From Deltaproteobacteria bacterium (GTDB lineage: Bacteria; Bdellovibrionota_B; Oligoflexia; Oligoflexales; CAIYRB01), in assembly GCA_016874735.1 (NCBI GenBank), contig VGTI01000004.1, positions 62,001-126,000 of the forward strand: DNA of 64,000 nucleotides, read 5' to 3'. Below, one piece after another: positions 44,688 to 51,838 of this stretch. The notes below the pieces were generated by a model. The model did not search any database. It was not told where the DNA came from and was given only the letters and a program-made list of their open reading frames with translations. Made by a program: the position numbers and the translations under genes. Every line of letters begins with the position of its first letter. The stretch's first letter is position 1.

Positions 44688-47600
44688 TTAGCCCGGCAGG
44701 CTAGCTACCAAAGGGGCGATCAATTTCGCTATTTCAGCGAGGAGTTTATCTTGTTCGTCGATAGATGGGTTTGCCGGGATTTCTAGGTAAAGTAGAAGTC
44801 GGTGATCGGGGCCTAACTTGTAACGTCCAGGCTGCCGCGAAATTGTCCCAAGTATCGTGTCGATCACTTTGTCTGCAAGTGGGGCGAATTTAATCTCACA
44901 CACCCCTTTTCCGGCTGTGACCCTAAGAGCCCCGATTGCCTTCAATTGCTGTTTTAATCTCGCCACCTTAAACAACAGGGCCGCCGGGGAAGGCAAGGCG
45001 CCATAACGATCTTGAATTTCCTGTTTCAAATCCCGCAACTCCTGTTCGGTGTCGCAGGCAAACAATTTTTTATACATTTGTAGGCGCTGAGGCTCTGACT
45101 GGATGTAGCTAACAGGTATCAATGCGGCTACAGGTAGCTTGATCTCAGTATCAATGCGATCAGATACCACCTCTCCGCGCAGCAGCTGAATTGCGTCCTC
45201 GAGCATTTCTGTGTAGAGCTCTAATCCAACCGCAGCCGCATGACCGGATTGCTCGCCGCCAAGTAAATTGCCTGCACCGCGCAACTCGAGATCGTGACTA
45301 GCAATTTGAAACCCAGCCCCTAATTCTTGATGAGCAGCTAGAACATCTAGTCGCCTTCTGCTGTCGTCCGAGAGGCTTTCCTCAGGCGGGGTTAGAAAGT
45401 AGGCATAGGCTTGTTGATTGGATCGTCCGACACGTCCTCGAAGTTGGTAAAGTTGCGCGAGTCCAAAACGCTCCGCATGGTTCACAATCAGAGTATTCAC
45501 ATTTGGCATATCTATGCCCGACTCAATGATAGTCGTGCATAAAAGCACCTGAAATCGTTGCTCAATAAAGTCGAGAATCACGCGCTCCAGTTGGTGCTCG
45601 GCCATTTGCCCATGGCCTACACGAATGTCGATTTCAGGGACAATCGCCTTGAGAAAGAGTCTTACCTGTTCAATGTCCTCCACTCTATTGTGGACAAAAA
45701 ACACTTGTCCTCCACGACGAATCTCCTGCTCCAAGGCCTCCTTGATCAAAGTTTCATCAAAGCGCGCAATATATGTTTTTACCGCCATCCGATCATGCGG
45801 CGGTGTAGCTATAATGGAAATATCCCGCATACCGATCATAGCCATATGTAAAGTTCGCGGAATCGGCGTTGCCGTTAACGTCAAAACGTGGGCACCAGCG
45901 CGGAGTTCCTTAAGCTTTTCCTTGTGACTGACGCCAAATCTTTGCTCTTCGTCGACAACGAGTAGGCCAAGCTTTTTCGGTTTCACATCTTTAGAGAGGA
46001 GTCGATGAGTCCCAATCAAAACGTCAATCGCCCCCGCTGCGAGACCTTCGGTCGCATCTCTTATCGCTGACGGTGAAACAAATCTATTTACTTGAGCTAC
46101 GCGAACACCATGGGGCTCAAGGCGCGACTTGAATAGTCGGTAGTGCTGATAGCAAAGCACGGTAGTTGGAACCAGAACCAGCACCTGCGCCCCTTCCAGC
46201 ACGGTACGCATGGCTGCACGAAGTGCTACCTCTGTCTTGCCAAATCCGACATCACCGCATACTAGGCGATCCATGGGTTTACCAGCCGACAAATCGGCTT
46301 CGATATCATGGATGGCGCGAAGTTGATCCTCCGTCTCGTCATAGGCAAACTTCGCCTCAAACCTAAGGTACTCGTCGTCTGCGAGACCAAATGGCTTGAT
46401 GCTTGCTAGGCTGCGTTGAGCATGGAGGCGCAGTAATTTATCTGCCATGTCCTGAATCGCGCCCTTAGCTTTTGCCTTGCGTCGCTCCCAACCAAGACCA
46501 CCGAGCTTATCCAAGCTGTGGATACCTGAGGTCTCACCACCACTGCTATACCGTTGCAATAAGCTGAGTCGATCAACCGGCAGGTAAACCTTGTCACCAC
46601 CGGCGTACTCTATGAGCAAAAAGTCGTTGTTAAGACCAGCTACTGAAAGCGTCGTTAATCCTGTATAACGACCTATGCCATGTTGAACGTGAACAACCAA
46701 ATCACCAATTTTCAAGTCAGCAAATGAATTTAAATAATTCTGCAGCTTCTGCGAGGCGGGCTTGGGGCGGCGCGGTGGAGCTCCGAAGAGCACTTGTTCG
46801 GGTAAGATGAGAGTCGCCTGATCTTCGAGCCAAAGGTGAGAGGAGAGTGAGCCTGGACCGACATAAATGCCGGGCAATATGTTTGAACCCTCAGCGACGA
46901 GACGCAAAATTTCAGGCTCGACAGTGGGGTCAAACCCTCTGTGTGCAAGTAAATTTAGCATACGCTCACGCTGCTCATCGTGCTGAGCAACTAGGACCAC
47001 GATTCCATGATGGTCCGTAAGCACACGAGTAATCAGCTCGAGCCACTTGTCGAAAAGCTCCGCACCCTGAGACTTATTTACGGGGGCACCGGGCAGGACA
47101 AATCTTGCCTCTAGCCGTAAAAATTCTGCCGTGTCCGATGCATAGGGATTGCCGCATTCAATCACACGACTGCGCACCGATAGTTCTTCCAACAATCCGC
47201 TAGGCGAAAGAAAATGCTTTTCTGGTGCCAGTGATCCGAGGCGCTTGGCCTTGTCTGTAGCGAAGTGCTCAGAAATACCATGAAAAAAATCATCCAATAC
47301 GTTTTTACATGCTTCAATCGACTGAGGGAAAAACAGAGTCGCCAATGGGGGAATAGTTGCAAGCGTCGATATTGATGTCGATCGAAGCAGCGGAGCAAAC
47401 ATATCAAAACCGTGAAATTTGACTCCTTGCTGAAATTGATTGGTTAAGCCGTCACGATCTACAGGAGCGACTTCGTGCTCCACAAGATGGCTAAATAAGA
47501 CTTGAGTTTGTTGTTTGCGCAATGCAGCAGGCATCAGCACTTCGTCGGACGGGGCAATCAACGCCCTATCGATAGTTCCCTTGGACTTCTGATCTGTTGG

Positions 47601-48245
47601 GTCGAAAACGCGGATCGAAGACAAAACATCCCCAACGAACTCAAGGCGAAGCGGTAGCGCCTGATTAGCAGGGTAAACGTCAACAATACCTCCCCGAATA
47701 GCGTACCCACCTTCCTCATTGACGGCCGCACCGAGTAAATAGCCAAGATCTTCTAATTGGGCGATCAATATATCCTGGTCAAGTTCCATACCAGTAACCA
47801 AGGAAAGGCTGGATTCAACTACACTAGTGACGGGTAACGTTAGTTGGGCCAAAGCCTGAAGAGTTGTCACAACTATCAGTGGACTTCGAGCGTCTCGGAG
47901 TTGCGCCAGGGCATAAACGCGTTGGCGGCGGGATAATGCATGATTGATGAAGCGATCATTGCCATACGAGGAAAAAAAAGGCAGAACTGCCGTTCGGAAA
48001 TCAACCCCGCTTGAGCTCATAACTCCAGCTAGATTCCCTGCAAAATTGAGCCACGGAGACATGTCTTTTGCACTCGGGACGACTAGAAGAAGCGGGGCAT
48101 TGTACCCTGAGCGGTCGCAGGTCAAACTAGTCGTGATAAGCTCAGTTAGTGCCTGAGAAGCTCCAGCTAACTGAATGCGCCGCCCTTTGTTGAGACAGGC
48201 TCCGACGCCTTCCAGCAGACCACGGTATCCAAAAACTGAACTCAT
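44688..48245 (-). CDS. mfd: transcription-repair coupling factor
   Basis: Protein of 1185 residues, close to the usual 1150. In order: a UvrB-like damage-recognition module, a CarD-like RNA-polymerase-interaction domain (IGDLVVHVQHGIGRYTGL), the RecG-like translocase with GDVGFGKTEVALRAAM, VVDEEQRFGVSHKEKLK and LTATPIPRTL, and the C-terminal TRCF domain. It removes stalled RNA polymerase and recruits UvrA. It starts 8 nt after the topoisomerase VI A gene, an unusual pairing, and is followed by two chaperone genes. Confidence 0.98.
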   Translation of the reverse strand: MSSVFGYRGLLEGVGACLNKGRRIQLAGASQALTELITTSLTCDRSGYNAPLLLVVPSAKDMSPWLNFAGNLAGVMSSSGVDFRTAVLPFFSSYGNDRFINHALSRRQRVYALAQLRDARSPLIVVTTLQALAQLTLPVTSVVESSLSLVTGMELDQDILIAQLEDLGYLLGAAVNEEGGYAIRGGIVDVYPANQALPLRLEFVGDVLSSIRVFDPTDQKSKGTIDRALIAPSDEVLMPAALRKQQTQVLFSHLVEHEVAPVDRDGLTNQFQQGVKFHGFDMFAPLLRSTSISTLATIPPLATLFFPQSIEACKNVLDDFFHGISEHFATDKAKRLGSLAPEKHFLSPSGLLEELSVRSRVIECGNPYASDTAEFLRLEARFVLPGAPVNKSQGAELFDKWLELITRVLTDHHGIVVLVAQHDEQRERMLNLLAHRGFDPTVEPEILRLVAEGSNILPGIYVGPGSLSSHLWLEDQATLILPEQVLFGAPPRRPKPASQKLQNYLNSFADLKIGDLVVHVQHGIGRYTGLTTLSVAGLNNDFLLIEYAGGDKVYLPVDRLSLLQRYSSGGETSGIHSLDKLGGLGWERRKAKAKGAIQDMADKLLRLHAQRSLASIKPFGLADDEYLRFEAKFAYDETEDQLRAIHDIEADLSAGKPMDRLVCGDVGFGKTEVALRAAMRTVLEGAQVLVLVPTTVLCYQHYRLFKSRLEPHGVRVAQVNRFVSPSAIRDATEGLAAGAIDVLIGTHRLLSKDVKPKKLGLLVVDEEQRFGVSHKEKLKELRAGAHVLTLTATPIPRTLHMAMIGMRDISIIATPPHDRMAVKTYIARFDETLIKEALEQEIRRGGQVFFVHNRVEDIEQVRLFLKAIVPEIDIRVGHGQMAEHQLERVILDFIEQRFQVLLCTTIIESGIDMPNVNTLIVNHAERFGLAQLYQLRGRVGRSNQQAYAYFLTPPEESLSDDSRRRLDVLAAHQELGAGFQIASHDLELRGAGNLLGGEQSGHAAAVGLELYTEMLEDAIQLLRGEVVSDRIDTEIKLPVAALIPVSYIQSEPQRLQMYKKLFACDTEQELRDLKQEIQDRYGALPSPAALLFKVARLKQQLKAIGALRVTAGKGVCEIKFAPLADKVIDTILGTISRQPGRYKLGPDHRLLLYLEIPANPSIDEQDKLLAEIAKLIAPLVASLPG

Positions 48246-48253
48246 GGACCAAC

Positions 48254-49432
48254 TTAATCGATGTAGTTACCGTTTTTTATCTTATCGATAATGATCTTTT
48301 CCATCATCTGAGGGTCTCGAGGATCGACCGAAATAAATGACTGCTGTTCACAGCGGCGTTTATTTTTGACGAGCCAATCCAGAATGCCACGCAGCTCTTT
48401 GTTTCGTTTGTCTTTAAAGAATGGATCATTGCTCAATGCGTCTCGGGCCTTTTTAAGAGCCCTCGCCTCTTGTAAGTCGCTCTCTTTTACTGGGTAGTCC
48501 ACCAGATCGTACTTGGCTATGTCCTCTGGCAAGACCCCCAAAAACTTCACCTCTGGCGCGCAAAAATCAGAGTTCCGTATTAGCGACGCTGCAGATCCAG
48601 CTCTTAACGTCCGATAAATGTTTTGCATCGTGTAAGCGTCAAGATCACCAAAAAAGAATAGCGGTACTCGCAACTGCTCTTGAATTCGTTTGACCCAAGC
48701 CCTTACTGCATTAGACGGCACTCCCTGTGCACCAATAAGAATGGAGTTGTGTCTCTTGGTAAAGCCATTAGCCACCAGAGTATTTGCCGTGCCTTGAGAC
48801 TCAATGATCAGGCAGAAATCAATTTTTTCTTTTGCCCGAAGTGTCAGATTCTGCGGGCGGTTTTTCGGTTGATAGGGCGCAGTGCCGAGGGTCGAAAGGT
48901 CTATCGTCGACTGAGTGCCGTCTAGCTCGGTTTCAACCACAACTAGCTGTTTCGAGTAGGTTTGACCACCGCGATCATCGGCAACGCAGTTTAGCTCCTC
49001 ACGATATGCCTCCATCATCTCGCAGATGAAATCGATTACGGAATCAGACTCATCTTGATCCTGGAAGTCTAGCGGCCTCAGCTTTGTCTCATGCTTTACT
49101 AGGCCTTTAGCGACGTAATAGAGCTCACGCTTAGTATTGATGTTAGCGATCTCGACGTTTCTGAGGAGAATTTCGAGCATGAAAATTGCTCGTGACATTT
49201 TTTTGACTGAGCTTACGTTAAGTTCCGAGGACACCTTTTTATTGCCTGGGGTTAAGTAGCCAACCTTCGGACTATATTGGGAATTATCTAAAGAACACTT
49301 TGTGGCAGTAAGCACGGGCCTTTTTGCCTTCTCTAAATCTGAAAGCATGCGCTCACATAGTTCTGTGCCCATCGAAATGATTTCAGATTGTTTCTTAGCT
49401 ACGCGCTTTGCTGATTGTTGAACTTTTGCCAT
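48254..49432 (-). CDS. top6A: DNA topoisomerase VI subunit A (Spo11-like)
   Basis: Protein of 392 residues, the DNA-cleaving subunit of type IIB topoisomerase. The winged-helix (5Y-CAP) domain carries the nucleophile in NTKRELYYVAKG (Y105/Y106, most likely Y106). The Toprim domain has E211 in LIIESQGTANTL, the loop GAQGVPSNAVRAW, and D263/D265 in FFFGDLDAY, then APEVKFLGVLPEDI. All catalytic positions of the family are present, so it should be active. The start ATG 49432 is one base after the subunit B stop. This family is typical of archaea and plants and rare in bacteria. Confidence 0.95.
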   Translation of the reverse strand: MAKVQQSAKRVAKKQSEIISMGTELCERMLSDLEKAKRPVLTATKCSLDNSQYSPKVGYLTPGNKKVSSELNVSSVKKMSRAIFMLEILLRNVEIANINTKRELYYVAKGLVKHETKLRPLDFQDQDESDSVIDFICEMMEAYREELNCVADDRGGQTYSKQLVVVETELDGTQSTIDLSTLGTAPYQPKNRPQNLTLRAKEKIDFCLIIESQGTANTLVANGFTKRHNSILIGAQGVPSNAVRAWVKRIQEQLRVPLFFFGDLDAYTMQNIYRTLRAGSAASLIRNSDFCAPEVKFLGVLPEDIAKYDLVDYPVKESDLQEARALKKARDALSNDPFFKDKRNKELRGILDWLVKNKRRCEQQSFISVDPRDPQMMEKIIIDKIKNGNYID

Positions 49433-49433
49433 A

Positions 49434-51263
49434 TCAAACTTTTCCCTTGCCAGACTTGGCTGCTGGCTTCACTGGCGCTGGAGCGGCAGCATCAGTTCCC
49501 GTGAACTGTTCGTCCTGATCCAAACCCTCGAAGAATCCGGCCAAACGCGATTTTTTCTCCTCAAGGTAACTGGCCAAACGGCCCTCCGCATCTGCCAGAT
49601 CTTTTTTGATTCCTTTTGTGTCTTTTTCAAGAATCCTCGCAAGACCCGCAGTAGCTGCCTGCTTCCTTTCGTCTGAGGCTCCGAGGATTCTGCCCAATGT
49701 CTCCACCAAGATCGGACCGAACTGTTCGATGTGCTGGACCCTTTGCTCCAATTCACCGGCCTTGTGTTCGCGACTGAGATAACGTGAGAGGCGCTGACCC
49801 GTCTGCATGAGTGCACGCCGCAATTCCTCAACAAGCTCGTCAGACGCATCGATTGTTTCTTTCGATGCATTCTTAAACTTGATGAAGGGAGACACGACGC
49901 TTACAGCCACAATGTAGGGGCCTAAAGGCAAACCATTTTTGGGCTGCTTAAGACCATATGACCTCCAATTTACTGAGGTAATAGCCTTAACTATGGCGCA
50001 GGAGGCTTTATCAAACTGGAGCGGCACACGGTTAGCAAATCGTAGGACCTGCACTTGCTCCTCGTTATCTTCTCCGCGTCGCTCCCGTAAACGGGCAATC
50101 GCTACCTCTACCTGCAACGGTTTGAAATCACAAATGACTGGTTTACGCGAAAGAACAGCGAAAAAGTCTATATCTCCAATGCGCCTAATACTCAGTGCCA
50201 GTCCATCCTCACCGACCGACAACACGGATGTGGTGGCTGGTGGCAGCAGGTCGACCGCTTGTATGGCAGAAAATAAAGCCTTGAACTCATCATCAGGTAA
50301 CGAGTCAACAAAACTGTCTAGCACCTTACGCTTGAGACCCTTTTGGCTCACTAGGTCCTGCAGAACCTTATCTGTGACACGTGAAAATCCCCTTTTCAGC
50401 CATACACTTGTCTTCATCCTGCCAAATAGACGGGCGTGCGACATGAACTCACCAAGCTTCATCGTGTGAGGATGGGGTTCGGTTGCTTGAGGCACAACGG
50501 GTACAGTGTTGACTACTCGATCGACGGACGCTGAGGGCACATCACTAATTTCGTAGTGTAAAGTCATGTGTGGATTTAACAGGATTGTGCTGCGTATGTA
50601 GTTCAGCAGGCCACCTTCACCGTTAAGCTGGATCCTTCCATCAAGCTTAAACTCGATACTTGTGCCGTGTGGACTTGACCATTCCACCGTTCCTTTGTCG
50701 CGCAGAATTCCTTTGTTATTCTTCAGGTCCATATCAACTACACACGTAAATGCCTTGCGTGCACTTTTTGTCTTTGTAACTACCCTGGCGCCGGTAGCCG
50801 TGGTCTGCATGGCCCAAGTAGTCGCGGCTGAAATCCCGATTCCTTGCTGACCGCGAGAACAGCGGCCACGTCCGAATTTAGATGACGCTAGGTATTCTCC
50901 GAATACTTTGGCGACATCATCCGGATCGATTCCCGGACCATTGTCTTCCACGTATATTCGAATTTGATCGGTATTTTTTAGTGTCCCAGGTCCAAGCTTT
51001 TCAACTTGCAGACGAATCTCAGGTAAGATCCCGGCATCTTCACATGCATCTAACGAGTTGTCTAAGGCCTCCTTTAGCGTTGTGAGAACCGCTTTCACCG
51101 GCGACGAAAAACCAACCTGCTGGAGGTTTTTGGCGAAGTACTCCGCTGTGCTACTCGTCGTAATCTGTTTCGCCGACTTACGAACGCGGGAGATTACTTC
51201 GGCCGAGGCATCGACCTCTGCCGCCAATTTTTTTGTAACCTTTTTGACCTGTTTTTTAGCCAT
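49434..51263 (-). CDS. top6B: DNA topoisomerase VI subunit B (GHKL ATPase)
   Basis: Protein of 609 residues. The GHKL ATPase has EALDNSLDACEDAGILPE (catalytic Glu at 65), VEDNGPGIDPDD and RGQQGIGISAATTWAM. The transducer domain has SVNWRSYGLKQPKNGLPLGP, holding the switch lysine, and SPFIKFKNASKETIDA. A helix-two-turn-helix region lies between. The archaeal protein is about 530 residues; here a C-terminal charged region and an Ala/Pro/Lys tail (AAAPAPVKPAAKSGKGKV) add length. It precedes top6A with one base between them, the usual archaeal order. Confidence 0.96.
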   Translation of the reverse strand: MAKKQVKKVTKKLAAEVDASAEVISRVRKSAKQITTSSTAEYFAKNLQQVGFSSPVKAVLTTLKEALDNSLDACEDAGILPEIRLQVEKLGPGTLKNTDQIRIYVEDNGPGIDPDDVAKVFGEYLASSKFGRGRCSRGQQGIGISAATTWAMQTTATGARVVTKTKSARKAFTCVVDMDLKNNKGILRDKGTVEWSSPHGTSIEFKLDGRIQLNGEGGLLNYIRSTILLNPHMTLHYEISDVPSASVDRVVNTVPVVPQATEPHPHTMKLGEFMSHARLFGRMKTSVWLKRGFSRVTDKVLQDLVSQKGLKRKVLDSFVDSLPDDEFKALFSAIQAVDLLPPATTSVLSVGEDGLALSIRRIGDIDFFAVLSRKPVICDFKPLQVEVAIARLRERRGEDNEEQVQVLRFANRVPLQFDKASCAIVKAITSVNWRSYGLKQPKNGLPLGPYIVAVSVVSPFIKFKNASKETIDASDELVEELRRALMQTGQRLSRYLSREHKAGELEQRVQHIEQFGPILVETLGRILGASDERKQAATAGLARILEKDTKGIKKDLADAEGRLASYLEEKKSRLAGFFEGLDQDEQFTGTDAAAPAPVKPAAKSGKGKV

Positions 51264-51308: not shown

Positions 51309-51758
51309 TTACTTCGGACCGTGGCGTAATAGGTCCTCAATCTTAGGCTCAGGCTTCCAGTATCCTGGCCCCTTCATCACCTTACCTCGGTGATCGTAAA
51401 TGGGCTGACCATCTTCTCCTAACTTGGAAAAATTCGATTGCATGATCACGTCTAGGATACGACCCAGCGGTAAGCCCCAGCGACGCGCTTCGCTAGCGCA
51501 GTACACCACCAAATCACCAAGCCAGTCGCTTAGCTCGGTAAGAACTGCTAGACGCTTATCGTCATCCAAAGGCTGGCCATCCCCGAGCAACGCCTCGTAC
51601 TTACCCGCTAGATCAAGGCCCTCATTGACTTCCTCAGAGATGATGTCGTGAAATTGGCGCAGGCGCTCAGGTCCAAGCAACGTCGGCTCGACGTTCGAAT
51701 CTAACTGGTACATGGCATTGAAACGCTCGATGTGATCAAAAAAACTGATGTCTGGCAT
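51309..51758 (-). CDS. MazG-like nucleoside triphosphate pyrophosphohydrolase
   Basis: Protein of 149 residues of the all-alpha NTP pyrophosphatase fold: metal-binding EEVNEG (in HDIISEEVNEGLDLAGKYE) and ELSDWLGDLVVY supply the EExxE and ExxD pattern. The C-terminal SNFSKLGEDGQPIYDHRGKV is characteristic of a MazG-like subgroup. It probably hydrolyses non-canonical or excess dNTPs. ATG 51758 with GAGGG about 10 nt upstream is preferred over GTG 51797. It is 45 bases upstream of top6B in the same direction. Confidence 0.85.
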   Translation of the reverse strand: MPDISFFDHIERFNAMYQLDSNVEPTLLGPERLRQFHDIISEEVNEGLDLAGKYEALLGDGQPLDDDKRLAVLTELSDWLGDLVVYCASEARRWGLPLGRILDVIMQSNFSKLGEDGQPIYDHRGKVMKGPGYWKPEPKIEDLLRHGPK

Positions 51759-51838
51759 ATCGTGAGATCCCTCTTGGCCTGAACTGTGACTACCCACTGT
51801 GCCACGGCCTGGGACTGTGATGCAAGTAAACCCACCGG

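Follow-up and report, generated by a model that had tools for sequence, protein, structure and literature searches.

Topoisomerase VI in a Bdellovibrionota/Oligoflexia genome whose only type IIA enzyme is gyrase: a likely replacement for topoisomerase IV

The role of topoisomerase VI in bacteria has been stated as an open question (PMC11302465). The window analysed here, a stretch of 64,000 nucleotides from a genome of the Bdellovibrionota/Oligoflexia assemblage, carries genes for both subunits of this enzyme. Two key questions raised by the locus are: (i) whether the genes specify a working type IIB topoisomerase; and (ii) what such an enzyme would do in a cell that also encodes gyrase. The answer that we consider probable is that they encode a functional A2B2 topoisomerase VI of old acquisition, which is likely a non-orthologous replacement of topoisomerase IV as decatenase. 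Topoisomerase VI in a Bdellovibrio without topoisomerase IV was described in 2024; its more general occurrence in bacteria that lack topoisomerase IV, and an archaeal source for the bacterial enzymes, are likewise published (PMC11302465, PMC11318664). As far as our literature searches show, the phylum-scale distribution, the second version of the enzyme and the triple-enzyme genomes described below go beyond those two reports.

The topoisomerase VI genes and their locus

The features of the locus are as follows.

44688–48245, minus strand: mfd, transcription-repair coupling factor; its start codon lies 8 bases after the top6A stop
48254–49432, minus strand: top6A, DNA topoisomerase VI subunit A, 392 aa, with a 5Y-CAP/winged-helix domain and a Toprim domain
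48320–48817, minus strand: Toprim domain of top6A (PF21180), with E211 (48802–48800), D263 (48646–48644) and D265 (48640–48638)
48989–49204, minus strand: winged-helix domain of top6A (PF04406), with Tyr105-Tyr106 (Tyr106 codon, 49117–49115)
49434–51263, minus strand: top6B, DNA topoisomerase VI subunit B, 609 aa, with GHKL ATPase, H2TH-like region, transducer and long C-terminal helices
49743–50240, minus strand: transducer domain of top6B (PF09239), residues 342–507
50244–50474, minus strand: helical region of top6B at the H2TH position, residues ~264–340, five helices predicted
50835–51071, minus strand: GHKL ATP-binding motifs of top6B (N-box E65-N69, G1 D107-G111, G2 G138-G143)
51309–51797, minus strand: 162-aa open reading frame, family unassigned; conserved within the genus and seen at this place before top6B nowhere else

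The initial annotation had recognised a complete topoisomerase VI, with an intact GHKL ATPase and transducer in subunit B and the two genes one base apart, and our analysis bears this out. The top6A frame is uninterrupted, and a single base (49433) separates it from top6B. Top6A matches PF04406 (TP6A_N, 3.7e-11) and PF21180 (TOP6A/Spo11 Toprim, 9.2e-38), and Top6B matches HATPase_c and Topo-VIb_trans (PF09239, 1.5e-43), all above the curated cut-offs. The NCBIfam model for topoisomerase VI subunit B, NF003218, is passed with 487 bits against a cut-off of 274. With the corresponding equivalog model for subunit A, NF003335, the score of 381 bits falls below the cut-off of 424, and Top6A is therefore a somewhat divergent member. 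The 162-aa frame upstream has no Pfam match even at an E-value of 10.

As expected of a type IIB enzyme of the topoisomerase VI family, subunit A combines the winged-helix tyrosine with the Toprim acidic residues, and subunit B combines intact GHKL boxes, an H2TH-like region and a transducer with a long helix. By homology with Y106 of M. mazei, Tyr106 would be the catalytic residue. The residues singled out in the initial annotation (Y105, Y106, E211, D263 and D265) do not vary among the 36 sampled sequences of the window type, and the archaeal references (M. jannaschii, M. mazei, S. shibatae) share every one of them; neither the active-site tyrosine nor a Toprim acid is lost in the alignment. 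In Top6B the N-box (EALDN at 65), G1 box (DNGPG at 107) and G2 box (GQQGIG at 138) were scored in the alignment, and these positions are intact and identical to the archaeal references. The earlier expectation that the enzyme is probably functional is supported: this is a complete and very probably functional topoisomerase VI.

The sequence matches of both subunits in the PDB are to archaeal topoisomerase VI subunits only, and Top6B aligns with 2Q2E_B through the H2TH region. AlphaFold models were built from 12-row alignments and reach a mean pLDDT of 65–67, which is moderate confidence; they therefore support the identity of the fold but no finer detail. The best fold matches of both models are topoisomerase VI chains (topoisomerase VI-B in the case of subunit B), and the predicted Top6B has helices at residues 270–336 in the H2TH region and a long helix at 475–527 in the transducer. 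The domain set, catalytic residues and fold are thus those of the archaeal enzymes (M. mazei 2Q2E, S. shibatae 2ZBK, M. jannaschii 1D3Y), whereas sequence identity to them is only 24–34% in A and 28–32% in B. The B-A gene order is also that of the two haloarchaeal plasmid loci that were read. A further difference is the Ig-like C-terminal domain reported for the M. mazei B subunit, of which Pfam gives no sign in the window's protein; here the C-terminus is predicted to be helical and then disordered.

The top6BA pair lies among mfd, peptidyl-prolyl isomerase genes, gpsA, nuo genes and ribosomal genes, without SMC or Mks genes. The pair is in the order B-A in all 130 loci that have both genes. 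From the short distance to mfd, top6A and mfd are probably co-transcribed. The adjacency B-A-mfd recurs in the window's family and in some neighbouring families, but is absent from the Oligoflexaceae-like and Bdellovibrio-like genomes examined. The proposed integration into a housekeeping operon is thus supported for this family and some of its neighbours, and does not extend to those other groups.

Several other identities for the genes can be weighed against this evidence. In topoisomerase VIII the A and B parts are fused in one polypeptide, and in Spo11 complexes the topoisomerase VIB-like partner is degenerate, without an H2TH domain and full GHKL boxes. Both were rejected, because the window has two separate chromosomal genes whose ATPase motifs are intact, along with an H2TH-like region in B. 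Topoisomerase VIII has been described on free or integrated plasmids (PMC11302465). A related scenario is that subunit A serves as a nuclease of the Spo11 or MksG/Wadjet kind, breaking DNA in recombination or defence with no strand passage. Topoisomerase VI A and Spo11 do share a fold, and Spo11 core complexes appear among the weaker fold matches; however, the best structural and sequence matches are topoisomerase VI chains, a full B subunit with its N-, G1- and G2-boxes, H2TH-like region and transducer is encoded next door, and the neighbouring genes are not of the SMC/Mks kind. We regard the nuclease scenario as very improbable. Finally, the assembly resembles a metagenomic one and is in 166 contigs, such that a foreign fragment might be suspected. 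The pair, however, sits between gpsA/nuo and mfd/ribosomal genes within one contig, and the close relatives found for it belong to other members of the assemblage. Independent assemblies of congeners share the gene order, and contamination is therefore effectively excluded.

Topoisomerase VI and gyrase in one genome

The genome containing the window (4.65 Mb, 96.8% complete) has as its nearest named records Pseudobacteriovorax- and Oligoflexales-like MAGs. It encodes one topoisomerase VI A subunit, one gyrA and one gyrB. A second type IIA gene (parC or parE) was not found in this 97% complete genome, PF00521 and PF00204 having a single match each, and it is unlikely that a parC/parE pair was missed in the remaining 3%. 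Because the A subunit has a GyrA box (QRRGGKG in the alignment), the sole type IIA enzyme is gyrase and topoisomerase IV is absent. The suggestion in the initial annotation that decatenation might be shared with topoisomerase IV accordingly falls away, and topoisomerase VI is the only candidate for a dedicated decatenase in this genome. Topoisomerase IV (ParC/ParE) belongs to type IIA, and its A subunit is a different one; the likeness between the two enzymes would lie in the presumed role of dedicated decatenase.

Topoisomerase VI enzymes are A2B2 holoenzymes in which strand passage depends on ATP and cleavage leaves overhangs of two nucleotides. By homology, ATP binding would close the clamp of subunit B on a T-segment, and the A dimer would then cut the G-segment, with Tyr106 making the double-strand break and E211, D263 and D265 holding Mg2+. 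The T-segment would pass through the break, which would be resealed. In the cell, the enzyme would most likely decatenate sister chromosomes and relax positive supercoils, work done elsewhere by topoisomerase IV, and its presence may have permitted the loss of topoisomerase IV. Our data show that both genes and their catalytic residues are intact, that selection on the genes is purifying, that gyrase is the sole type IIA enzyme and that the B-A pair is widely conserved; the activity, the A2B2 assembly, the decatenase role and the permissive effect are inferred. Since gyrase is present and topoisomerase IV absent, chromosome decatenation is the best reading. The archaeal enzyme offers some precedent: topoisomerase VI of M. 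mazei prefers decatenation over relaxation (PMC8837201), and complementation of a parE-ts mutant of E. coli by the same enzyme is mentioned by Allen and Maxwell as unpublished data (PMC11302465). In the literature searched, we found no biochemical data on a bacterial topoisomerase VI.

A different possibility is that topoisomerase VI is accessory and specialised, for example in removing knots or precatenanes during filamentous or multi-copy replication, while gyrase alone does the bulk of decatenation, as it would have to in relatives that have only gyrase. The same class does include lineages (families f12 and f4) that show gyrase only, and a second type II enzyme is therefore not strictly needed. 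Against an accessory role are the strong purifying selection on top6AB and the wide retention of topoisomerase VI, with topoisomerase IV absent, across the relatives of Bdellovibrio, which suggests a core role. We consider the accessory scenario unlikely, and continue with replacement of topoisomerase IV as the preferred reading.

Among the closest known systems is the topoisomerase VI of Bdellovibrio bacteriovorus and its relatives (Bd2864; PMC11318664, PMC11302465), which belongs to the same family and assemblage as that of the window. Subunit A of the window is 68–70% identical to Bdellovibrio-type sequences; mfd adjoins the window's copy but not the Bdellovibrio-type copies examined. According to Allen and Maxwell, Bdellovibrio has gyrase and lacks topoisomerase IV (PMC11302465); one Bdellovibrio gene is labelled Top IV in PMC11318664.

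Distribution of topoisomerases VI and IV in two phyla

Topoisomerase VI is present in 30 of 58 genomes of the window's own phylum (grouping as in the genome collection) and in 149 of 241 genomes of Bdellovibrio's phylum (that of Bdellovibrio sp. qaytius). The description of topoisomerase VI as only scattered in bacteria thus holds across phyla, but not here: in these two phyla roughly half of the genomes, or more, have it. Two genomes in which it was not found, G038 and G041, were not scored as losses because mfd, next to which the pair usually lies, is itself missing there or borders the end of a contig.

In Bdellovibrio's phylum, three genomes without any type IIA match were excluded from the comparison of the two traits. 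Genomes with topoisomerase VI have one type IIA A subunit in 141 cases and extra matches in 6; those without it have one in 22 cases and two or more in 69 (Fisher p 6e-33, a value that is overstated because relatives were counted as independent). The six exceptions are split gyrA genes or fragments, with G097 having an additional divergent type IIA pair. When mapped on a tree of RpoB from 67 genomes, each trait changes six or seven times, and phylogenetically independent pairs give about two changes in opposite directions and almost none in the same direction, which is not significant and too few to test. The anticorrelation in this phylum is clade-driven.

Among the 58 genomes of the window's own phylum the two traits are not associated: a second type IIA pair occurs in 7 of the 30 with topoisomerase VI and in 7 of the 28 others (Fisher p = 1). 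The seven genomes with both parE-parC and topoisomerase VI comprise six of one family together with G023, and a GyrA box was not found in the second A subunits checked among them. Bacteria having gyrase, topoisomerase IV and topoisomerase VI together were known to Allen and Maxwell only from Pseudomonadota and Terrabacteria (PMC11302465); the Oligoflexaceae-like genomes seem to be one more such group. In trees of ParC and of ParE from the window's order, the grouping roughly follows that of RpoB, which is consistent with a topoisomerase IV that was ancestral to the order and lost repeatedly, including in some topoisomerase VI lineages. In three genomes (G011, G022 and G036; loci L172–L174), a single contig holds both pairs, with ~10–15 kb between parE-parC and top6BA.

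In the Bdellovibrionota/Oligoflexia assemblage, topoisomerase VI is common and comes in two versions, and within one phylum it almost never accompanies topoisomerase IV. The assemblage offers culturable test organisms (Bdellovibrio) and close genomes with topoisomerase VI, topoisomerase IV, both or neither. An implication is that the bacteria without topoisomerase IV would lack the topoisomerase IV target of fluoroquinolones.

In a group of Bdellovibrionota without topoisomerase VI (G083, G098, G113, G123, G132, G199, G285 and G190), the open frames of ParC are only ~470–485 residues long, and their length suggests that the C-terminal domain is missing.

Age of the genes and a second version of the enzyme

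In comparisons of the window with four relatives, the proportion of nonsynonymous sites changed is 0.04–0.12 for A and 0.05–0.20 for B, synonymous sites being saturated for both. Top6A and Top6B both evolve at a slower pace than the product of the adjacent mfd, and selection on the two genes is strongly purifying. The GC content of top6BA is close to that of the neighbouring genes. Because related genes occur throughout the assemblage, GC is near that of the neighbours and selection is purifying, the proposal of an old transfer is supported: topoisomerase VI here is an old acquisition of the Bdellovibrionota/Oligoflexia lineage and now a chromosomal resident.

Six Bdellovibrionota genomes (G099, G107, G080, G092, G114 and G084; loci L189–L194) carry a second version, also a B-A pair with its aligned active-site residues intact, and no second type IIA enzyme was found in these genomes. 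Its subunit A is 54–58% identical to that of M. jannaschii and 26–33% (~29%) identical to the window type, which itself shares 28–35% with M. jannaschii. In a topoisomerase VI tree, for which only a few archaeal outgroups were available, branch lengths are extreme and the donor is left unsettled; identities were used instead. The gap between 54–58% and ~29% implies separate acquisitions, the second version being probably Methanococcales-like; the alternative would be a single acquisition from which the window type descended with extreme acceleration. Two bacterial clusters of topoisomerase VI, one of them near Methanococcales, were distinguished by Allen and Maxwell (PMC11302465), and the second version would fit the latter. 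If acquisitions were separate, topoisomerase VI may have entered Bdellovibrionota at least twice from different archaeal sources, with topoisomerase IV absent each time, a natural experiment in convergent replacement of the decatenase. We put this forward tentatively, as a possibility somewhat short of an even chance.

A scan of genome contigs for topoisomerase VI matched close relatives only. The phage search found none and the plasmid search three haloarchaea only, while the search of viral contigs gave one Bdellovibrionota-like piece. The latter (L188, IMGVR_UViG_3300028558_000016, 482 kb) is listed as viral, carries a topoisomerase VI pair of the Bdellovibrionota type and may be a misassigned piece of chromosome. 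Another record, a MAG titled Lysobacteraceae (L064, JAGTJX010000002.1), was sampled as a member of Bdellovibrionota and groups with that phylum by both topoisomerase VI and RpoB, and its title looks wrong.
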